This document shows, in pieces, positions 3,346-20,268 of a stretch of DNA of 64,000 nucleotides (its first letter is position 1; the number at the start of each line of letters is the position of its first letter). Location: contig JACXUV010000003.1 of assembly GCA_014763715.1 (NCBI GenBank), positions 111,266 to 175,265 on the forward strand, given 5' to 3'. Source of the DNA: Rhodobacterales bacterium (GTDB lineage: Bacteria > Pseudomonadota > Alphaproteobacteria > Caulobacterales > Hyphomonadaceae). The notes below the pieces were generated by a model. That model was given only the letters and a program-made list of their open reading frames with translations. It ran no database searches and had not been told where the DNA came from. The position numbers and the translations under genes were made by a program.

Positions 3346-5361
3346 TTAGGCATAAATGGAGTTTGCTGCAGATACGATGACATTTTCATGCATGGTACCC
3401 TGAACCACAGCAGCGTCCGTCAGGACCAGGCCAACAGTATTCCAGTACTTCCTGGCATCGAACCGTGTAGCACGGATACAGACCCTGACGTTCTTACCGG
3501 CTGCAAATGCACCGCTCACACGAACGTCAATCGAGTACTTCAGCTTCTCTGCATCGAACGAGCAACACAGCTTGCCGTCGACCATGACATCAACCATAAA
3601 GACGTTCCGCGGCGGCGCGACGGAAGAATGGATCTGCAGGATCAGAGTCCAGCTATTGTCGGCAGGCAGGCCCAGATCAGCTACGTCCAGTGAGATGTAC
3701 TTGTAATCCCCGACTTCGGCTGGCCGCGGCTTGTAGATGACCTCAAGCCCCATCGCCGTGCGAGCCATCGCAAAATCGGAGCCCTTGGCACCATCAGTCT
3801 CGTCCCTCACGACGCCCGCCTCAAAATACCGGAGCGGGATCGGGCTACGCATCACATGTGCTAGCCGGCGCGTGACGGCCGGTTCAAACCGCTCCAGCAT
3901 GACGCCGGCGCGTTCCTTCCAGCTGGCGTCCTGAGCGTGCTTCTGAAGGCGCTTCCTGTAGGATGCGTCCCCCTTCTTCTTCAGCGCAGCATCGATTGCG
4001 GCAGAATACTCCTGCACATTGCTGGCGCCGAAGACTTCCTTGTAGGCAACGCACTCTTGCATGTCGGCATTCACGACCACCGGCAAGTTCGCGGCAAAAT
4101 ACTCGAACAGCTTCAGCGGAGACGTCGTCTTGGCGATATTGCCTTCCTTGAAGGGAATCCACGCAATATCGAACGCGTTCAGGAGGCGCGGAACCTCAGG
4201 GTACGGAAAGGCGCCTGGCCAGACCAGATTATCTGCCGCGGGCAGCCTGATTTCCGGATTGTACACAGGGCCGACCATCACAAAGGTCAGGTCCTCACGC
4301 GCTCGCGCCAGGCTCGCAATCGCATCATAGTCCAGCCAGTCCGCCAGGGCGCCGACATATCCTACAATCGGTTTGCCGCCATGCTCGGCCCGGATCCGGT
4401 CAATCTCGGGATGTGAGTCCTTGATGGTTGTGAACCGTTCGATCTCGACGCCATTCGGCGCAAGGGCAATGAAATCCGACGGGAACCTCTGCCTGACCTC
4501 TTCGTGCAGGATGCGCGCGGTCGGCACGACGATGTCGCAATTGTCCGCCGATAGGGCCTCAAACGTCTTCTGCGCCGCACTTGCCCCATCTGCGCCTGAA
4601 ATCGCCGCATCGATGTGATCGACATATTCGTAGACTAGGTAGTGACCGAGGCATCTCCACCGTTTCAGGATCGTCGCGTTGTAGTCATAAGCGGTGCTGT
4701 AGACATCGATGAAACATGGCGGCGCCTTCTGGACGAACTCATTGAAGAAGGCGGTCTGCTTGCAGACAATCAGGTTGTCCCTGATCTCGATGGTCTCGTC
4801 GCCTTTGTCGTAGACCTTGCTGCCGGAAAAATAGACGACCAGCGCGCCCCGCGCGGCCATCTCCGCCGCGATATGTTGCGGCCGCTGGAACAGGGGCACG
4901 TTCCAGTCGATGAAGGGCGGAATCACGAAGACATGCTGCCCCCTGGAAAAGGCGGAATGCACCCGCTCCATGAGGTTGCTGAAATTGATGATCCGGGAAT
5001 TCTCGGACCGGTACAACTCGTTCGGATACTTGAAGACCTGATTGCGCAGGTGGGGGCTCGATCCCAACTGGTCCGCCATTGGCGCGACCATCTGGCCGTC
5101 GAAGTCGAACTCGTCATCTTCAATGGCCAGGGTCAGCGTGCTCGAAACGTCGACATCTTCCGGAATGTCGATTTCAAAGCCGATTGGCATATCGGCATAT
5201 TCGGCATCGACATCCGGCCGCAGGAATGCCGGCTCTGCGACAGCCACCACCTCGCCATCCGCCAGGAGCTGGATCAGAACGGTCCTGTCCTTGTCAAACA
5301 GGTCCACGACCCAGCCCGAGACGATTGAGCGATCGAAGCGATCGACGGCACCCATCAGCAT
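3346..5361 (-). CDS. Modular glycosyltransferase (GT4-like core with N- and C-terminal accessory domains)
   Basis: 671 aa; core VFVIPPFIDWNVPLFQRPQHIAAEMAARG ... LAPNGVEIERF ... IVGYVGALADWLDYDAIASLA ... TSPLKLFEYFAANLPVVV. Confidence 0.85.
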   Translation of the reverse strand: MLMGAVDRFDRSIVSGWVVDLFDKDRTVLIQLLADGEVVAVAEPAFLRPDVDAEYADMPIGFEIDIPEDVDVSSTLTLAIEDDEFDFDGQMVAPMADQLGSSPHLRNQVFKYPNELYRSENSRIINFSNLMERVHSAFSRGQHVFVIPPFIDWNVPLFQRPQHIAAEMAARGALVVYFSGSKVYDKGDETIEIRDNLIVCKQTAFFNEFVQKAPPCFIDVYSTAYDYNATILKRWRCLGHYLVYEYVDHIDAAISGADGASAAQKTFEALSADNCDIVVPTARILHEEVRQRFPSDFIALAPNGVEIERFTTIKDSHPEIDRIRAEHGGKPIVGYVGALADWLDYDAIASLARAREDLTFVMVGPVYNPEIRLPAADNLVWPGAFPYPEVPRLLNAFDIAWIPFKEGNIAKTTSPLKLFEYFAANLPVVVNADMQECVAYKEVFGASNVQEYSAAIDAALKKKGDASYRKRLQKHAQDASWKERAGVMLERFEPAVTRRLAHVMRSPIPLRYFEAGVVRDETDGAKGSDFAMARTAMGLEVIYKPRPAEVGDYKYISLDVADLGLPADNSWTLILQIHSSVAPPRNVFMVDVMVDGKLCCSFDAEKLKYSIDVRVSGAFAAGKNVRVCIRATRFDARKYWNTVGLVLTDAAVVQGTMHENVIVSAANSIYA

Positions 5362-5409
5362 ATCAAATTTCCCAACTTCCTTAGTGACTGTTCTGGCCCG
5401 GCGGCGTGC

Positions 5410-6399
5410 CTACTTCAATTCCTCAAGGACCTGCTGCCGCAACATCCCGAGTTCCTTCTTGGACTCGGCGCGTAGGGCAAAGACTGCGTCACGGTCTACG
5501 CCCGCCATGCCCGGATAGAAACGCTCAGGCAGGGTCTCGTCCGGCGCTACAGCCATGTGCGCCTCGCGGCCGATCCGGTTATAGAAGTGCACGAACTTGT
5601 CGGCGCGGCTGAGTGTGATCGTCGGCACGCCCGACATGTGGCCCACGACGCAGCCATGGAACTTCATGCTGAGCAGCAACTGGCAGCTCTGGATCTCCCG
5701 GGTCAGCTCCTCGATCGTGTTCGCAACCGTGATCGACCGGGGCGTGAACGTGTGCTCGTGCGCCTCGGCAATGTCATCGTCTGCCGTCGGCGCCGTCCCC
5801 AGCGGGATGTGCTTGATACTCCAGCCGGCATCCACCGCCTTCTGCAGGAAGGCGTTGATATTGACCGGATTGAGGTTCTGGTTTGCCCGTGTGATCAGGC
5901 CCAGAACCTTGTTCTGGGGGGAGTTGAACGGGAAATCCATTGCACAGACGATGTCCACGCCGGGATAGACGTCAACGCTCGGACGCAAATGCTTCTTGAT
6001 CCACTCTGCGCTGACCTGGCTGCGGGTATGGATGAATTTCACATTCTCGTGCTGGAAGAAGGCAGCCATCTGTTTGCAGACATTCTCGTCCCATCCGCCC
6101 CATCTAGGCACTTCCACGCCGACAATATAGACCGGCTTGGCTAGGTATTCCTCTTTCCAGTAGAGCGGGCTCAGCATCCACGGTATGATCAGGTCGCCGC
6201 CGCCGATGATGACTGCATCGAACTGTGCGACCCGCTCCTCAACGGACGTCGAGAAATACGGAGCGACGGTCATGTCATGCATTACGTCCACCTCGATATC
6301 CTCATCGCCAGCAAACAGGTCCGCCAGGACCTGCCGAAACAGCTCATCGCCGTAGTTTCCCCACTTGAAATAACCGACAAGACCTATGCGCTTCGTCAC
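5410..6399 (-). CDS. Polysaccharide pyruvyl transferase family protein
   Basis: MTKRIGLVGYFKWGNYGDELFRQVL ... DAVIIGGGDLIIPW ... HTRSQVSAEWIKKHL ... LLSMKFHGCVVGHMSGVPTI, typical CsaB/PS_pyruv_trans pattern. Confidence 0.87.
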   Translation of the reverse strand: MTKRIGLVGYFKWGNYGDELFRQVLADLFAGDEDIEVDVMHDMTVAPYFSTSVEERVAQFDAVIIGGGDLIIPWMLSPLYWKEEYLAKPVYIVGVEVPRWGGWDENVCKQMAAFFQHENVKFIHTRSQVSAEWIKKHLRPSVDVYPGVDIVCAMDFPFNSPQNKVLGLITRANQNLNPVNINAFLQKAVDAGWSIKHIPLGTAPTADDDIAEAHEHTFTPRSITVANTIEELTREIQSCQLLLSMKFHGCVVGHMSGVPTITLSRADKFVHFYNRIGREAHMAVAPDETLPERFYPGMAGVDRDAVFALRAESKKELGMLRQQVLEELK

Positions 6400-6795
6400 C
6401 GGAACTCCTAATCTATGTATAATTGCGGGAGGGACCGAGATTGATTCAACGTCAGACTAAGCGACGGTTCACATGAAATCTCTGATATAAAGCAGCACAT
6501 TCTGGATCCCGTCTCCTGATTTGACTCCGCGATGCCGGAACTTACCTGACTGCGCCGCCTGTTCGTCCCGTGCGCGCGACGCTTGCTGCATCAGTCTTCT
6601 AGAGAGCCCTGAGAGGCGAGGCAACCTGTTTGCGGCACGGCGTCCGGCAACCGTATGGTGCAAAGGCAGGACTGTCGCTCGCACCATCCTGCCATAGCCC
6701 GTTTACAGGGCGCCGCAGCAGACAGTAACCATGCGTGATTTGCCCACCTTGGCGACAGGTCCTATCGGGGCTGGGTAGACTTTCGGAGCCCCAAA

Positions 6796-7956
6796 ATGTC
6801 CCTACCCTTCATCGACCTTCAGGTCCAGCGCAAGCGGATCGAGAACGAACTTAACAGCGCCATTCTCTCCGTTGTCGAAAGCGGACGCTATGTCCTCGGC
6901 CCGGAAGTGACCGAATTGGAGAAACAGCTTGCCGCCTGGTGCGGCGCAAAGCATTCGGTCAGTTGCGCCAATGGCACGGACGCCATCGCTCTGACGCTGA
7001 TGGCGTGGGAAACCGGCCCCGGCGACGCGGTCTTCTGCCCCTCCTTCACCTTCGTTGCGACGGCGCAGGTCGTGCCGTGGACGGGCGCCTCGCCGGTCTT
7101 CGTCGATATCCTGCCCGAAACCTACAATATGGATCCAGCCAGCCTCGAAGCTGCGATTGCCCGCGTGAAGGCGGAAGGCAAGCTGACGCCGAAAGTCGTC
7201 ATCGCGGTGGACCTGTTCGGCCAGCCGGCAGACTATCCGGCCCTCAAGGCGATCTGCGACCGCGAAGGGCTCAAACTCATCTCTGACAATGCGCAGGGCT
7301 TCGGCTGCACCCTGAACGGCAAGGCGACAACCGACTGGGCCGACATCGCGACCACCAGCTTCTTCCCGGCCAAACCCCTCGGCTGCTATGGCGACGGCGG
7401 CGCGGTGGTGACGAATGACGACCGGCTCGCCGAACTCGTCGAATCGCTGCGCGTCTACGGCAAGGTCATGCCGACCGATGCGGCCGAACGCAACTTTCAT
7501 CACGACCCGAAATACCTGTCGCTGCGCCTGGGCATGAACTCCCGCCTCGACACGATCCAGGCCGCCGTCCTGCTGGAGAAGCTGAAGATCTTCGCGGACG
7601 AGATCCAGCTGCGCCAGAAAGTGGCGGGCCGGTATTCCGCAGGCCTGAAGGATCATGTCCGCCGCGTGCCGTACATCATCGAAGGCGGCCAGAGCGTCTG
7701 GGCACAATACGTCATCGAGCATGACAATCGTGACGGTCTGCAGGCGCACCTTTCCAGCCAGGGCATCCCGTCCATGGTCTACTATCCGGTGCCGATCCAC
7801 ATGCAGGACTTTGCCGCAGAATGGGCTCCGCCCGCAGGCAGCCTGCCAGTCACCGAAGCGGCCAGCCAGTATGTCATCGCCCTGCCCATGCACCCCTATC
7901 TCCCGGAAGAAGACCAGGACCGCGTGATCGACGCAGTACGGGCCTTCAACGGCTGA
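6796..7956 (+). CDS. DegT/DnrJ/EryC1/StrS family aminotransferase
   Basis: 386 aa; CANGTDAIALTLMAWETGPGDAVFCPSFTFVATAQVV, DNAQGFG, SFFPAKPLGCYGDGGAVVT. Confidence 0.93.
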   Translation: MSLPFIDLQVQRKRIENELNSAILSVVESGRYVLGPEVTELEKQLAAWCGAKHSVSCANGTDAIALTLMAWETGPGDAVFCPSFTFVATAQVVPWTGASPVFVDILPETYNMDPASLEAAIARVKAEGKLTPKVVIAVDLFGQPADYPALKAICDREGLKLISDNAQGFGCTLNGKATTDWADIATTSFFPAKPLGCYGDGGAVVTNDDRLAELVESLRVYGKVMPTDAAERNFHHDPKYLSLRLGMNSRLDTIQAAVLLEKLKIFADEIQLRQKVAGRYSAGLKDHVRRVPYIIEGGQSVWAQYVIEHDNRDGLQAHLSSQGIPSMVYYPVPIHMQDFAAEWAPPAGSLPVTEAASQYVIALPMHPYLPEEDQDRVIDAVRAFNG

Positions 7957-7968
7957 CACTCAAAGAGC

Positions 7969-8628
7969 ATGAACACAGATCCTTTCGAAGAGATCGTCAT
8001 TGCAGATGCCTGCAGTGCGGCCTTCGACCAATTCTTCGCGATCTATGAGGAGGCGCTACCCGCCGGCGAACGCAAGCCGCGCGAGGCCATCGTCGCACTC
8101 AGCAAGCGGTCGGATTCTGCCATTCTCGGGCTGTCCTGTGACGGACAGGTCGTCGCCTTTGCCATCGTCTTTGCGTCGAACACGGCGCCTGTCGGCCTGC
8201 TCGAATACATGGCCACATCGAAAGCGCTGCGGAATGCGGGGCTGGGCAAGCGACTGTTCGCAATGGCGCTGGCTCGCATGGAGGGCCGGGTGATGCTTGT
8301 GGAGGTCGAATCCGAACGCGAAAAGACAGCCGACACGCCCCTCCGTTTACGCCGCAAGAATTTTTACTGCCGGCTTGGCTGCCAGCAGGTTGAGAAGCTG
8401 GACTATATCATGCCTATGGTCAGCGCAGAGAAGCCGCCTGTGCTGGATCTTCTCTTTCACACCGGCGGGCAGGCGATCACCGTCACGGACACTCTTCTTC
8501 GGACCTGGCTGGAAACAGTCTACACGGAAGTCTACGGACGCCGCATCAACGACAGCAATATCGCCCTGATGCTGCAGCGCCGCGCTGAAGAGATGCGCCA
8601 GAGCGGCGAGGCCAAAGGAAAGGGTTAG
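7969..8628 (+). CDS. GNAT family N-acetyltransferase
   Basis: LEYMATSKALRNAGLGKRLFAMALARME resembles the GNAT acetyl-CoA binding motif. Confidence 0.7.
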   Translation: MNTDPFEEIVIADACSAAFDQFFAIYEEALPAGERKPREAIVALSKRSDSAILGLSCDGQVVAFAIVFASNTAPVGLLEYMATSKALRNAGLGKRLFAMALARMEGRVMLVEVESEREKTADTPLRLRRKNFYCRLGCQQVEKLDYIMPMVSAEKPPVLDLLFHTGGQAITVTDTLLRTWLETVYTEVYGRRINDSNIALMLQRRAEEMRQSGEAKGKG

Positions 8629-9059
8629 GACCGGCCACTCAGCTCGGTCATGACGCGGAACCATCGGTTTGCATCATCGGCTCCGACCACCTCGAAGACA
8701 CGGCCCAGACGCCTGACCTGAGCCCCTGTCAGTTCCGCTTCGAGACGTTTGCCCTTCTCCGTCAGGCACAGGCGTTTGACACGCCGGTCAGCCTCATCGG
8801 CCACAGGGCAGACCAGATTCATTTCGATCAGCTGCCGTAACGGCGCGTTCAGCGCCTGTTTGCTGATCGCCAGCGTCTCCAGAAGCTCGCCAATCTTCAG
8901 ATTCGGATTGCGCTCGATGAAGTAGAGAAGGCGGTGATGCACGCGGTTGAGGCCACGCCTGTCGAGGATCTTGTCGGCATGGGAGGTGAACTCGCGATAG
9001 GCAAAATACATCAGCTCAATCGCGCTGAGCATCCGATCATCTGAATCTGGGTCAACCAT
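8625..9059 (-). CDS. MarR family winged-helix transcriptional regulator
   Basis: HHRLLYFIERNPNLKIGELLETLAISKQALNAPLRQLIEMNLV...DRRVKRLCLTEKGK. Confidence 0.88.
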   Translation of the reverse strand: MVDPDSDDRMLSAIELMYFAYREFTSHADKILDRRGLNRVHHRLLYFIERNPNLKIGELLETLAISKQALNAPLRQLIEMNLVCPVADEADRRVKRLCLTEKGKRLEAELTGAQVRRLGRVFEVVGADDANRWFRVMTELSGRS

Positions 9060-14020: not shown

Positions 14021-14965
14021 TCACGAAAACTCGACGCGTTCCTGCGAGAACCGGAACAGGGATCTTGTTTCTTCATCAATGGCATCGCCGGGCACATTCA
14101 ACAGCGCGTGCATCGCGTTCTTGCGGTCTTTCAACGCGTGATCAAAGTCCTGCTCGATCAGCCGGTCCACACCCGTTCGCAACATTGCATCTCGCACTTC
14201 CATATAGAGCGTTAAAGACCCACCCAGAAACATGGATTCATAGGCAATTTTGCTGGCAATTTTGTCATGTATATCTGTGTACTGAAACTGCCGCTCCATG
14301 ACCGACTTCCGCTTACAGATGAAATCGATCTCGTGCCGGTATTGCGGATGCCGCAGGTACAAGCTCTTGAGCGCGATCATTTCGTCATCGATACGGGTCT
14401 TGATCTCGTCCGGCAGGGACTCGCTAAGGATGATAACAATATCAATATCGGACCCCTTGACCATCTCCCCGCTTGCCTCATGCTCACGCGGCTCGTTGTG
14501 GGCCAGAAAATAAGCCAGATCCCCCGCGATGAAGGCACAAAGCTGGCTGCGGACTTCGCGGCCAAGACTGACAAACAAATTCTTCATCACCTGCTGAGCC
14601 ACACCGATTTTCTCACGGCTGATCTCGCGGTGCATATTGGCCAGCGTTCCCTGCCGCTCAATCATCTGGTCTCGCTGCCCCGGCAACCCGAACAGGGTAA
14701 AGGAGAGAAAATCCCTCTGGATCGATGGGCTGAGACGCACCAGGTCCTCACGCGTGATGTCAAACCGCAGGTAATAGCTGGCAAAATGAGAGACGTGGAA
14801 CGTGCGGCTCCGATAGCAGGCCTGCCACAACGCCAACACCGGCACATCAGGCATTTCCGCCGCCAGCTCCTTGCCGATCATCGGCCCCTTGGCCGCAATC
14901 AGCTGCACCACACGGCTTTCAATGTCCTCCAGATCGCTTGCAGGCAAAGCTCGCTCCTTTTCCAC
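14021..14965 (-). CDS. Uncharacterised protein: possible N-terminal wHTH plus C-terminal pol-beta-type nucleotidyltransferase-like domain
   Basis: GTG start 17 nt downstream of the rmlA stop; GSDIDIVIILSE followed by HEIDFICK resembles the DxD...D carboxylate arrangement of pol-beta nucleotidyltransferases. Confidence 0.7.
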   Translation of the reverse strand: MEKERALPASDLEDIESRVVQLIAAKGPMIGKELAAEMPDVPVLALWQACYRSRTFHVSHFASYYLRFDITREDLVRLSPSIQRDFLSFTLFGLPGQRDQMIERQGTLANMHREISREKIGVAQQVMKNLFVSLGREVRSQLCAFIAGDLAYFLAHNEPREHEASGEMVKGSDIDIVIILSESLPDEIKTRIDDEMIALKSLYLRHPQYRHEIDFICKRKSVMERQFQYTDIHDKIASKIAYESMFLGGSLTLYMEVRDAMLRTGVDRLIEQDFDHALKDRKNAMHALLNVPGDAIDEETRSLFRFSQERVEFS

Positions 14966-14981: not shown

Positions 14982-15851
14982 TTAGCCGGGTTGCCTCAAC
15001 AGGGACAACAAATAGTCCCTGTATTCATTGTTGAAGGACGCTGCCAGTGCGCGCATCTGATCATCCGAGATCAGCCCGCGGCGCCAGGCAATTTCCTCAA
15101 GGCAGGCAACCTTGAGCCCTTGCCGCTTCTCAACAGTCTGAACGAATTGCGACGCCTCCAACATGCTGTCGAACGTCCCCGCATCGAGCCAGGTGACCCC
15201 GCGCGGCAGCCGCACAACATTCAGCTCATCGCGGTCCAGATAGGCCTGATTGACCGAAGTGATTTCCAATTCACCGCGCGCCGATGGCGTCACCGAGCGG
15301 GCAACTTCCGTTACATCGGGGCCATAGAAATAAAGCCCTGTCACCGCCCAGTTGGCCCGCGGGTTTGCCGGCTTCTCCTCAAGCGACAGCGGGGCTCCCC
15401 CGGCGTCCAGCTCAACTATACCGAAGCGTTGGGGATCGTGAACCTGGAAAGCCAGCACGGAGCCCCCCGTGCGTGTATCCGCCAGATCCTGAAGCATACC
15501 TGTCAGGCCAGCGCCATAAAATATATTGTCGCCAAGCGCCAGGGCACAGGCATCTCCGGCAAGGAAGTCCTCACCGATCAGGAAAGCTTCTGCGATCCCG
15601 GCGGCGGTTTCCTGTTCAAGATAAGAAAACGTCACCCCCCATTGAGCCCCATCTCCCAACAGCGCCTTATAGGATTGCATCTGTCCCTTGGCACTGATGA
15701 TCAGGATCTCCGTGATGCCCGCCAACAGGAGAGTGGAAATCGGGTAATAGATCAGAGGTTTGTCATAGATCATCAGCAGGTGTTTCGAGACAGCCCGCGT
15801 TGCCGGATAAAGGCGGCTGCCCTTCCCCCCGGCCAGAATAATGCCCTTCAT
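14982..15851 (-). CDS. rmlA: Glucose-1-phosphate thymidylyltransferase
   Basis: MKGIILAGGKGSRLYPATRAVSKHLLMIYDKPLIYYPISTLLLAGI. Confidence 0.97.
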   Translation of the reverse strand: MKGIILAGGKGSRLYPATRAVSKHLLMIYDKPLIYYPISTLLLAGITEILIISAKGQMQSYKALLGDGAQWGVTFSYLEQETAAGIAEAFLIGEDFLAGDACALALGDNIFYGAGLTGMLQDLADTRTGGSVLAFQVHDPQRFGIVELDAGGAPLSLEEKPANPRANWAVTGLYFYGPDVTEVARSVTPSARGELEITSVNQAYLDRDELNVVRLPRGVTWLDAGTFDSMLEASQFVQTVEKRQGLKVACLEEIAWRRGLISDDQMRALAASFNNEYRDYLLSLLRQPG

Positions 15852-16732
15852 GACGCCGGGAACTCCTCAACCAAACCATCGACAGTCTCTCTCAGGCCGG
15901 CTTCCCAGTCCGGCAACTCCACACCGAACACGCGGGTCGTTTCCGACATGTCGAGACGCGCATTCAGCGGTCTTTCTGCGGGGGTGGGATAATCAGCCGT
16001 TTGAATTGGAATCACCTCAGCGAAAGGGCCTCCGATCTCCCGGCTGTATTCGAAAATCTTTTGTGCCATCAGCGCGCGATTGATTTCACCACGACCTGCC
16101 AGATGGTAGACACCCCAGGCCTCAAAACCCGGTGCTGCTGCCTGCCGGGCCATTTCGAGCAGTCCCTCCGCCAATGCGGGCGCATGTGTCGGGCACCCGA
16201 GCTGGTCCCTCACCACAGTGAGTGAAGGCCGGGTCTGGGCCAGCTTCAGCATGGTCCATACAAAATTTTTCCCGAACCGGGAAAAGATCCAGGAAACCCG
16301 CACAACAAGAGTATGCGGGGCTCGCCCGCGCACGGCCACCTCCCCCTCAAGCTTGGACCGCCCGTAAACGCCCAGCGGGCATGTCTTGTCGTCCGGCACA
16401 TAAGGCTCAGGCTTTTCTCCGTCGAACACACAATCCGTGGACAAATGGATTAGCGGCAAGCCATGCGCCGCACAGGCACCTGCCAGATTTTCCGGGCCAG
16501 TGACATTCAGCGCGTGGGCCATCGCCGGATCGCTTTCCGCCCCATCCACGGCCGTATATGCCCCGGCATTGATAACAGCCCCCGGCTGACAGGACTCAAT
16601 TGCACGCATCAGCGAGCTCCCGTCCAGAAGATCCACCTCCGGACGACCTATGCAGACGACGCCATCCCCGCCGACATGAGCCAGGGCCTGGGCCATCTGG
16701 CCACTTTTTCCGATGACGAGAACGGGCTTCAT
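15848..16732 (-). CDS. rmlD: dTDP-4-dehydrorhamnose reductase
   Basis: VLVIGKSGQMAQALA ... VINAGAYTAVDGAESDPAMAHALNVTGPENLA ... STDCVFDG. Confidence 0.95.
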   Translation of the reverse strand: MKPVLVIGKSGQMAQALAHVGGDGVVCIGRPEVDLLDGSSLMRAIESCQPGAVINAGAYTAVDGAESDPAMAHALNVTGPENLAGACAAHGLPLIHLSTDCVFDGEKPEPYVPDDKTCPLGVYGRSKLEGEVAVRGRAPHTLVVRVSWIFSRFGKNFVWTMLKLAQTRPSLTVVRDQLGCPTHAPALAEGLLEMARQAAAPGFEAWGVYHLAGRGEINRALMAQKIFEYSREIGGPFAEVIPIQTADYPTPAERPLNARLDMSETTRVFGVELPDWEAGLRETVDGLVEEFPAS

Positions 16733-17781
16733 CTGCCACGCCCAAGGCGCTGCCCCTGATAGCCCCTCTCACGCTCAGGGTGCCACCAGTCTTCATTCGC
16801 CAGATACCAGTCGACAGTCGCCTCCAGTCCGGCTTCAAAATCCTGTGTGGGGCTCCAGCCCAGCTCCCGGCTGATCTTTGCCGGGTCGATCGCATAACGG
16901 AAATCATGTGCCGGGCGATCTTCGACAAACTCGATCAATGCCTCATGCGGCGCGTGTGCTGGCCGGCGGGCGTCAAGGATACGGCAAACTTCTTGTACGA
17001 TCTGGAGGTTTGTGCGCTCGGCCCCGCCACCGACACAGTAAACCTCTCCCGGCACGCCCCGCTGCGCCATCAGGCGAAGCGCGCGGGCGTGGTCTTCCAC
17101 ATGCAGCCAGTCACGCACATTCAGCCCATTGCCGTAAACGGGAAGAGGCTTCCCCTCCAGGGCATTGAGGATCATCAGCGGAATGAGTTTTTCTGGAAAC
17201 TGGCGCGGCCCGTAATTGTTCGAACAATTGGACACAACGACCGGCAGGCCGTAGGTGCGCTGCCAGGCGCGCGCCAGATGGTCAGCCCCGGCCTTGCTGG
17301 CAGAATAAGGGGAAGACGGATCATATCTGGAGGTTTCGGTAAACACGCCTTCAGCACCGAGAGCCCCGAACACCTCATCCGTAGACACATGAACAAACCG
17401 GAACACATCTCCAGCCGCCCCACCAAGGCCCACCCAGTAATTCCGCGCTGCCTCCAGCATGGCATATGTGCCAACCAGGTTCGTTGAAATGAAGTCCGCC
17501 GGTCCGTCTATGGAACGGTCCACGTGCGTTTCAGCCGCCAGATGGAAGACAGCGTCCGGTGCGACCCCGGCCATGATCTCATGCATACGTGCCGCATCGC
17601 ACACATCTGCCTTGATATGCCGAAACCCCGTTTTCGTCTTCAGCGACTCCAGCGTGGCCGGATTGGCCGCATAGGTCATCCGGTCAATGACCGTCACCTC
17701 CGTTTCCGGATCGGACAACAGCAGATGACACAATGCCGAACCGATGAAACCGACACCACCTGTTACGACACACCGCTTCAT
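16729..17781 (-). CDS. rmlB: dTDP-glucose 4,6-dehydratase
   Basis: Start reassigned to MKRCVVTGGVGFIGSALCH at 17781; HLAAETHVDRSIDGP; YSASKAGADHL. Confidence 0.96.
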   Translation of the reverse strand: MKRCVVTGGVGFIGSALCHLLLSDPETEVTVIDRMTYAANPATLESLKTKTGFRHIKADVCDAARMHEIMAGVAPDAVFHLAAETHVDRSIDGPADFISTNLVGTYAMLEAARNYWVGLGGAAGDVFRFVHVSTDEVFGALGAEGVFTETSRYDPSSPYSASKAGADHLARAWQRTYGLPVVVSNCSNNYGPRQFPEKLIPLMILNALEGKPLPVYGNGLNVRDWLHVEDHARALRLMAQRGVPGEVYCVGGGAERTNLQIVQEVCRILDARRPAHAPHEALIEFVEDRPAHDFRYAIDPAKISRELGWSPTQDFEAGLEATVDWYLANEDWWHPERERGYQGQRLGRGR

Positions 17782-18359
17782 GTAACGCCTTCCATGGCCG
17801 CTCCGAAGCCGGACCGAAGCGCCGACAGGCCGGGCCACATCCGGTCACGGTCGGAAAGGGTCATTTCACTCGCAGGGAACGGCCATTCAATCCCCAGATC
17901 CGGATCGTCAAAAGCCAGCCCGGAATCCGCTTCCGGCGTATAATACTGGCTGACGCTGTAGATGATCTCCGTATCACTCTCCAGCGTACAAAACCCATGC
18001 GCAAATCCGGCGGGCACAAACAGCTGGTCGCCCGTCTGAGCGGAAAGCTCAACCGACACATGATGCCCGAATGTCGGCGACTGGGGCCGGATGTCGACAA
18101 CCACGTCCAGAATACGCCCACTCGTGCAACGCACCAGCTTTGCCTGCTCATAAGGCGCCTTCTGGAAATGCAGCCCCCTCAACGTCCCCTTGGGACGCGA
18201 CAGGGAATGATTCGCCTGCACGAACTGACAATTGATTCCGTTGTCTGCAAATTCGGATTGCCGGAAAGTTTCGGCGAAGAAGCCGCGTTCATCCTCAATG
18301 CGTACAGGATGGATGAGGATAACGCCCTCCAATCCATCAAATGTCTCGAATGTGGCCAT
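17778..18359 (-). CDS. rmlC: dTDP-4-dehydrorhamnose 3,5-epimerase
   Basis: QFVQANHSLSRPKGTLRGLHFQKAPYEQAKLVRC; FVPAGFAHGFCTL. Confidence 0.96.
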   Translation of the reverse strand: MATFETFDGLEGVILIHPVRIEDERGFFAETFRQSEFADNGINCQFVQANHSLSRPKGTLRGLHFQKAPYEQAKLVRCTSGRILDVVVDIRPQSPTFGHHVSVELSAQTGDQLFVPAGFAHGFCTLESDTEIIYSVSQYYTPEADSGLAFDDPDLGIEWPFPASEMTLSDRDRMWPGLSALRSGFGAAMEGVT

Positions 18360-18441: not shown

Positions 18442-20268
18442 TTACTCTACTGTAACGGATTTTGCGAGGTTCCGCGGCTGGTCGACATCCGTCCCTTTTG
18501 CAACGGCGACATGGTAGGCCAGCAGCTGCAACGGGATCGACGCCAGGATCGGCAGGGTGAAGTCATCGCCATCCGGCATACGGATCACATGGTCGGCCCG
18601 GTTTCCGGCCGCAGCAATACCGGCATCGTCGGAAATCAGGATGACCCTGGCACCGCGCGCACGGATTTCCTCGACATTGGAGATGGTTTTCTCGAACAGC
18701 TCATCCTTCGGCGCCACAACCACGACAGGCAGCCCCTGTTCGATCAGGGCAATCGGCCCGTGCTTGAGTTCGCCCGCCGCATAGCCTTCAGCATGGATAT
18801 AGGAAACTTCCTTCAGCTTCAGTGCCCCTTCCAGGGCCAGCGGATAATAACGCCCCCGGCCCAGGAACAGCACATCGCGCGTCTGCGTCAGCGTTTTCGC
18901 GATCTCGCTGATCTGCTCCTCTGACTGCAGGGCTTCTGTCACCTTGCGCGGCAGGGCCAGCAGGTTCTTGACGGCGCTGGCTTCATCTCCCGGCAGCAGG
19001 TGGCCACGGGCGCGCGCCGCTGCCAAGGCCATCACAGCCAGCACAGACAGCTGAGCGGTGAACGCCTTGGTCGATGCCACACCAATTTCCGGCCCGGCAT
19101 GAGTTGGCACAATGGCGCCAGCCTCCCGTGCGATTGAACTTTCCGGCACATTGACGACGGCAATGGCGGTCGTGTTGTTCTCGCGGCAATAACGCAGAGC
19201 GGCAAGCGTATCGGCCGTCTCCCCGGACTGGCTGATGAACAGCGCCGGGCCAGACTGGGGCAAAACAGGCTGGCGGTAACGGAATTCGGAGGCGATGTCC
19301 GTCTCCAGCGCGAGGCGCGCAGCCTGTTCGAACCAGTACTTCGCCGTGAAAGCTGCATAATAGGCTGTGCCACAGGCAATCGCGACAGCGCGGTCCGCGA
19401 CTGTGAGCGCGGCGGTTGCGACCGTTCCAATGTCCAGTGTGCCCGTCACCTGATCGACATAAGGCAGGATCGACCGGGCAATGGATTCCGGCTGCTCATG
19501 GATTTCCTTGAGCATGAAGTGGTCATACTCGCCGCGCTCAATCAGGGCATCGTTAACCGCGGACGTGACACGCTTGCGGTTCACCCGCTCGCCCCGGGCA
19601 TTACGGATGTCGAAACTGTCCGGCGTGAGAATGCACCAGTCACCTTCTTCCAGATAGGTGACGTCACGGGTGAACGGCGCCAGCGCAATGGCATCGGAGC
19701 CCAGGAACATCTCCCCTTCGCCATAACCGAGCACCAACGGGCTGCCACGGCGGGCGCCCATCATCAGCCCCTGCTCACCATCGAAGACCACAGCAAGCGC
19801 GAAAGCCCCATGCAGTTCCCCGAGCGTCGCCTCGAATGCATCGACCGGGTCCAGCCCCTCGCTGACCTTCTGGTCGAGCAGCTGCGCAATCACTTCGGAA
19901 TCAGTTTCCGATTCAAAGTGACGGCCATTTGCCTGCAGCACCTCACGCAATTCACGGAAATTCTCGATAATTCCATTGTGGACGATCGCGACACGGCCCG
20001 ACATGTGCGGATGGGCATTGGTCTCATTCGGCTGGCCGTGCGTGGCCCAGCGTGTGTGGGCAATGCCGGTTGTCGCGTCCATAGGACATTCGCGCAGCAC
20101 AGCCTCCAGATTGGCGATCTTGCCCGCTGCGCGGCGCCGTTCCAGCCCACCAGGCCCCGTCACGGCGATCCCTGCGCTGTCATAGCCACGATATTCCAGC
20201 CGCTTCAGCCCATCGATCAACCGATCTGCCACGGGCCCATCACCAGAAATCGCAACAATTCCGCACAT
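18442..20268 (-). CDS. glmS: Glutamine--fructose-6-phosphate aminotransferase (isomerizing)
   Basis: MCGIVAISGDGPVADRLIDGLKRLEYRGYDSAGIAV ... C-terminal DVDQPRNLAKSVTVE. Confidence 0.98.
   Translation of the reverse strand: MCGIVAISGDGPVADRLIDGLKRLEYRGYDSAGIAVTGPGGLERRRAAGKIANLEAVLRECPMDATTGIAHTRWATHGQPNETNAHPHMSGRVAIVHNGIIENFRELREVLQANGRHFESETDSEVIAQLLDQKVSEGLDPVDAFEATLGELHGAFALAVVFDGEQGLMMGARRGSPLVLGYGEGEMFLGSDAIALAPFTRDVTYLEEGDWCILTPDSFDIRNARGERVNRKRVTSAVNDALIERGEYDHFMLKEIHEQPESIARSILPYVDQVTGTLDIGTVATAALTVADRAVAIACGTAYYAAFTAKYWFEQAARLALETDIASEFRYRQPVLPQSGPALFISQSGETADTLAALRYCRENNTTAIAVVNVPESSIAREAGAIVPTHAGPEIGVASTKAFTAQLSVLAVMALAAARARGHLLPGDEASAVKNLLALPRKVTEALQSEEQISEIAKTLTQTRDVLFLGRGRYYPLALEGALKLKEVSYIHAEGYAAGELKHGPIALIEQGLPVVVVAPKDELFEKTISNVEEIRARGARVILISDDAGIAAAGNRADHVIRMPDGDDFTLPILASIPLQLLAYHVAVAKGTDVDQPRNLAKSVTVE

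Follow-up and report, generated by a model that had tools for sequence, protein, structure and literature searches.

Gene content of the locus

The window analysed here, i.e. the whole stretch of 64,000 nucleotides, carries on its minus strand a wHTH/nucleotidyltransferase gene at positions 14021–14965, to which we refer as the query gene for short. It shares its strand with glmS (18442–20268), rmlC, rmlB, rmlD and rmlA (14982–15851), which precede it in this order, and metK lies convergent to it. glmS was recognised by its TIGR01135 match and occurs as a single copy in the genome, and the four rml genes fill positions 14982–18359 between glmS and the query gene. The initial annotation had described an open reading frame of 314 aa from a GTG codon, which is present in the ORF list, and had placed it 17 nt after rmlA on the same strand; the strand is correct, while the gap counted from the GTG is 16 nt. 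A TTG codon at 14947, residue 7 of this frame, has AAGGAG 6 nt in front of it and is the position at which the homologues begin, and we therefore consider it the likely start, leading to a gene of 308 aa at 14021–14947 and a gap of 34 nt after the rmlA stop codon. In the gap between rmlA and the query gene no promoter-like site was found on the same strand by a simple sigma-70 scan, which is in keeping with co-transcription of the query gene and the rml genes. By eye, we additionally noted genes for a glycosyltransferase-like protein (3346–5361), a polysaccharide pyruvyl transferase-like protein (5410–6399), a DegT-type aminotransferase (6796–7956) and a GNAT-like protein (7969–8628) elsewhere in the window.

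As a single sequence, the query protein gave nothing above cut-off in Pfam, NCBIfam, PHROG, PADLOC or PDB, and the sequence search of PDB gave nothing useful with either one sequence or a profile. Its score against the Pfam model NTP_transf_2 (PF01909) was 18.5 bits (E 0.0027) and thus below the gathering cut-off of 21 bits; 25 of the 31 members show this weak likeness, which spans the DxD region. Searches of phage, plasmid and viral-contig sequences returned no relatives, and a viral fold library only weak matches. The query gene represents a family without any Pfam or NCBIfam model, and in the open-access literature on this combination of wHTH and nucleotidyltransferase we found no account of it.

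Predicted fold and active site

The AlphaFold2 model of the query protein, built on a 31-sequence alignment, reached a pLDDT of 89.7 and a pTM of 0.85. It consists of a winged-helix domain with a beta hairpin (residues 10–96, 14678–14938), a long linker helix (residues 98–133, 14567–14674) and a nucleotidyltransferase core (residues 141–250, 14216–14545). From the motifs GSDIDIVII and HEIDFICK, both found in the protein, the initial annotation had postulated a pol-beta nucleotidyltransferase-like core with its carboxylates, and this assignment was recovered by the model, by Foldseek, in which the best matches are nucleotidyltransferases, and by residue invariance. In the comparison with PDB, DrrA ranked first (E 5.2e-4) and the adenylylation domain of GlnE second (E 1.4e-3), followed mainly by aminoglycoside nucleotidyltransferases scoring nearly as well. 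DrrA was the only nucleotidyltransferase match with E <0.001 and structural similarity was modest (TM ~0.36), so that the matches would locate the fold of the query protein and not its function.

The N-terminal winged helix, likewise postulated initially, is borne out at fold level. The modelled elements (helices 10–26, 31–37 and 43–52, strands 57–60 and 65–68) follow a helix-helix-helix-strand-strand topology, and the domain folded alone reached a pLDDT of 85, its top Foldseek matches being the winged helices of BpsR, MarR, DsrD and Z-alpha, with a best E of 0.025 and none <0.001. The hairpin carrying the YLRxD motif was ordered in the full-length model and poorly defined in the isolated domain, which suggests that it packs against the nucleotidyltransferase core.

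Residue invariance was assessed in 91 sequences from Alphaproteobacteria and Firmicutes, comprising the one in the window and 90 distinct complete reads from fetched loci. Most positions of YLRxD and of RLSPSI-R-F, both in the winged-helix domain, are invariant in this set, and G148, D149, H156, R160, G171, S172, D173, D175, E212, D214, K239 and E243 are identical in all 91, so that none of these sequences has lost the carboxylates of DID or EID. G171-S-D173-I-D175 (14441–14455) would supply the first two catalytic carboxylates and E212-I-D214 (14324–14332) the third, in agreement with a [DE]h[DE] motif and a further carboxylate on a later strand (strands 174–180 and 213–219 in the model). The place of the hG[GS] motif is taken by G148-D149 (14519–14524), reading hGD, in which the glycine is kept while the second residue and the spacing to DxD differ. 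Exactly 24 residues separate G148 from D173 in every sequence, including an insert with the invariant H156 and R160 (14486–14500). Since about 9–13 residues lie between hG[GS] and DxD in usual nucleotidyltransferases, the G-x24-DxD spacing appears unusual at the level of sequence. It also departs from the G-X11-D-X-D motif of GlnE and SidM (PMC12409994), which is found in none of the 91 sequences. The catalytic residue set nevertheless appears intact, and the query protein is a predicted nucleotidyltransferase.

Conservation and genomic neighbourhood

Relatives of the query gene occur in 38 of 42 Hyphomonas genomes. Among the non-carriers, glmS is also missing in G060 and G061 and cut at a contig end in G072, so these three apparent absences are likely assembly gaps; the fourth, G071, is 85% complete. 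The gene is also found in two more genera of Hyphomonadaceae, in other families of Caulobacterales and in Firmicutes (29/98 genomes in the class holding a Syntrophomonadaceae genome, 8/113 in a second class), and is rare elsewhere (3/387 Alphaproteobacteria and 4/398 Pseudomonadota, all of the same genus). In the tree, the Firmicutes sequences form one group with a support of 100/99, and they align to the query protein at ~30% identity with 36 invariant positions. dN/dS amounts to 0.03–0.06 for the query gene, 0.05–0.10 for glmS and 0.08–0.23 for the rml genes, these ratios being approximate due to high dS; the rml genes thus evolve faster than the query gene, whose pace is close to that of glmS. 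Carriage, selection and identity taken together, the conservation of this reading frame is, as judged from the aligned sequences, far beyond chance. The query gene is a near-core chromosomal gene, and H. jannaschiana VP2 and H. oceanitis SCH89 are laboratory strains in which it is present.

Neighbouring reading frames were accepted on a simple length criterion, which left spurious antisense frames in some maps; the key neighbour genes named here were checked by tblastn or NCBIfam, while the labels KpsF, AGE, GT2, DegT and DHH were given by eye or by likeness to genes of the window. In Hyphomonas, glmS lies directly upstream of the query gene in seven mapped loci (L001, L006, L009, L014, L022, L048 and L053) with gaps of 22–111 nt, and in the other loci rmlCBDA, rmlC and rmlD, or rmlD is placed in between; in L009 the rmlCBDA set sits further downstream. 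The rml genes are therefore a variable insert, and glmS is the stable upstream partner in this genus. A subtilisin-like (S8) autotransporter-like gene, absent from the window, was seen downstream of the query gene in L002–L005, L008–L011, L021 and L022. In other Caulobacterales (L086–L101) the query gene is not beside glmS, its neighbours being cysDN, KpsF, manC, rmlA, GT2 and DegT, in part sugar-nucleotide genes, so that assignment to amino-sugar metabolism is strongest for Hyphomonas and Firmicutes. A link to sulfation via cysDN seems less likely, since this adjacency looks like residual gene order (cysN-cysD followed by glmS and the query gene in Hyphomonas). In L089–L092 and L094, cysDN is followed by a gene for a DHH-family-like protein with no NCBIfam match, which we would guess to be a pAp phosphatase.

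For Firmicutes, 31 loci were mapped, one of which ends at a contig edge before any downstream gene. nagB follows the query gene in 26 of the remaining 30, sharing its strand in 17 and lying convergent to it in 9, and glmM follows in three. Upstream we found a GlmU-type acetyltransferase gene in 20/31, often overlapping or ≤20 nt away. NCBIfam confirmed the neighbours nagB, glmM, YvcK and CdaA and assigned the acetyltransferase to the archaeal type of GlmU, of which it corresponds to the C-terminal half. rml genes were adjacent to the query gene in none of these loci. In L150 (plus strand), a glmS ribozyme (4098–4251) is followed by glmS (4333–6159), the acetyltransferase gene (6179–6997), the query gene (7001–7900), nagB (7917–8645) and a terminator-like hairpin (8655–8674). 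The same locus holds a second glmS ribozyme at 2441–2594 ahead of glmM, a position which seems unusual. In L118 and L119, GlmR/YvcK is encoded directly upstream of the query gene with glmM and glmS behind; together with nagB, cdaA and cdaR, amino-sugar and c-di-AMP genes are thus assembled around it. In G908, G489, G1126, G1151, G1158 and other genomes, GlmU ends near model position 330/452 and has no acetyltransferase half, and GlmU is probably split in these Firmicutes, with the stand-alone archaeal-GlmU-type acetyltransferase encoded beside the query gene.

The neighbourhood survey thus upheld conserved linkage, to glmS, nagB, glmM and the acetyltransferase gene, and not a tie to the rml genes, on which the emphasis had been in the initial annotation, whose statement that the product is not a dTDP-rhamnose pathway enzyme we share. 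glmS was present in all tested carriers except G489, which has the query gene on a short contig and is probably an incomplete genome. nagB was found in 21/22 query-bearing and 3/13 query-lacking Firmicutes genomes (Fisher p 1.5e-5), a test which ignores relatedness and linkage and a count which is inflated by co-inheritance of linked genes. NagB as the common target was ruled out, since none of the tested Hyphomonas genomes contains nagB, and the common node is consequently glucosamine-6-phosphate (GlcN6P) rather than NagB. GlcN6P, which the partner genes serve to form and degrade, is the point at which the route to cell-wall amino sugars begins.

A proposed role at the GlcN6P node

GlmS governs how carbon and nitrogen enter peptidoglycan and LPS. 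Known controls of GlmS are the glmS ribozyme, GlmR, RapZ/sRNA and EIIA-Ntr, among which, to our knowledge, there is no covalent nucleotide switch. A conserved family that is found next to glmS, nagB and glmM in two phyla, and in one locus behind a glmS ribozyme, is a concrete candidate for such control and comes with a short list of putative targets. In this view the query gene may encode a new regulator or enzyme of the amino-sugar pathway rather than one of rhamnose synthesis. Conservation, strong selection, the predicted fold with its active-site set and the linkage to GlcN6P genes in both phyla form the observed basis for a model in which a pol-beta nucleotidyltransferase with a winged-helix N-terminus would serve the GlcN6P node of UDP-GlcNAc synthesis. 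It would transfer a nucleotide (AMP or UMP) from an NTP onto a protein of this node, with GlmS, the sole candidate acceptor found in essentially all carriers, as a possible target. Amino-sugar flux would be tuned thereby, as GlnE tunes glutamine synthetase, and the winged helix could act as a sensor or partner-binding module.

We propose tentatively, and with somewhat less than even confidence, that the query gene encodes a nucleotidyltransferase with an intact catalytic set that acts at the GlcN6P node, most likely by nucleotidylylating a node protein such as GlmS. We infer a protein acceptor from the likeness to GlnE and DrrA, the top two structural neighbours and both protein adenylyltransferases, and from precedents of direct control of GlmS, namely activation by GlmR/YvcK depending on UDP-GlcNAc (PMC7525490) and control by EIIA-Ntr as a protein partner (PMC5024086). 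In Streptococcus mutans, GlmS and NagB are established as acting against each other at the GlcN6P node (PMC3306399). The choice of nucleotide and target, the direction of control and the part given to the winged helix belong to this interpretation. The low TM value, the antibiotic nucleotidyltransferases following closely in the structural ranking, the departure from G-X11-D-X-D and the missing glmS adjacency in L086–L101 argue against it. That the query gene stands for a new family of protein nucleotidylyltransferases, which would attach AMP or UMP reversibly to GlmS or to a different enzyme of the GlcN6P node and so form a GlnE-like covalent switch common to Alphaproteobacteria and Firmicutes, is conceivable, and we regard this more specific claim as doubtful.

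The main rival explanation is nucleotidylylation of a small molecule, i.e. an amino sugar, a sugar phosphate or a related metabolite, in the manner of aminoglycoside nucleotidyltransferases. The structural matches include ANT(4''), AAD(9) and AadA, and many neighbouring genes act on sugar phosphates or amino sugars; DrrA and GlnE outrank these enzymes, however, and a near-core chromosomal gene with no relatives on plasmids, phages or viral contigs does not resemble one for resistance, so that we consider such an acceptor rather unlikely. A role chiefly as DNA-binding regulator of amino-sugar genes, with the nucleotidyltransferase domain as nucleotide sensor, could be derived from the MarR-type winged-helix matches. 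Those matches are weak, the would-be recognition helix LALWQACYRS is largely hydrophobic with an invariant W, and the full catalytic set is kept in 91/91 sequences; the net acidic winged-helix region (pI 5.5) adds a mild argument, some relatives being basic, and this role is accordingly less probable still. Regulation of cell-surface polysaccharide or dTDP-rhamnose would explain why the query gene adjoins rmlCBDA here and lies near rml, manC, GT2, KpsF and DegT in other Caulobacterales, but is improbable given that in seven mapped loci no rml gene lies between glmS and the query gene, that the set is incomplete in others and never adjacent in the Firmicutes loci, and that rml genes evolve faster than the query gene. 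A CD-NTase-like second-messenger synthase or MNT-type toxin-antitoxin nucleotidyltransferase shares the broad fold, with Hailong HalB low in the structural list and cdaA/cdaR nearby in some Firmicutes loci; we hold this highly improbable, as PADLOC and PHROG gave no match, no effector or HEPN-type partner was noticed, the neighbours are metabolic in a stable context, and the cdaA neighbours presumably represent the usual cdaA-cdaR-glmM cluster. Replacement of the uridylyltransferase half of GlmU, paired with the stand-alone acetyltransferase of the archaeal GlmU type adjacent in 20 Firmicutes loci, is the least credible reading and is disfavoured because it predicts carriers without the pyrophosphorylase domain, which is present in 53/53 tested genomes, including those in which GlmU has no acetyltransferase half.

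A node-serving nucleotidyltransferase, the reading we prefer, can be set against several known systems. ANT(4''), AadA and AAD(9) belong to the same fold superfamily (structural E 0.016–0.4) and differ in being resistance enzymes without a winged-helix N-terminus of this type. The C-terminal domain of GlnE (PDB 3k7d) shares the pol-beta fold with DxD and a third Asp; GlnE, however, has two nucleotidyltransferase domains compared to one combined with a winged helix here, a shorter motif spacing and no sequence match. The N-terminal AMPylase of SidM/DrrA (PDB 6yx5, 3nku) offers the nucleotidyltransferase fold of a protein AMPylator, but is a secreted effector with its own motif spacing (PMC12409994), no detected sequence similarity to the query protein and an unrelated context. 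GlmR (YvcK), a CofD-like protein, is neither a nucleotidyltransferase nor homologous to the query protein, and nevertheless tunes GlmS flux similarly to the role proposed here, being encoded directly upstream of the query gene in two loci.
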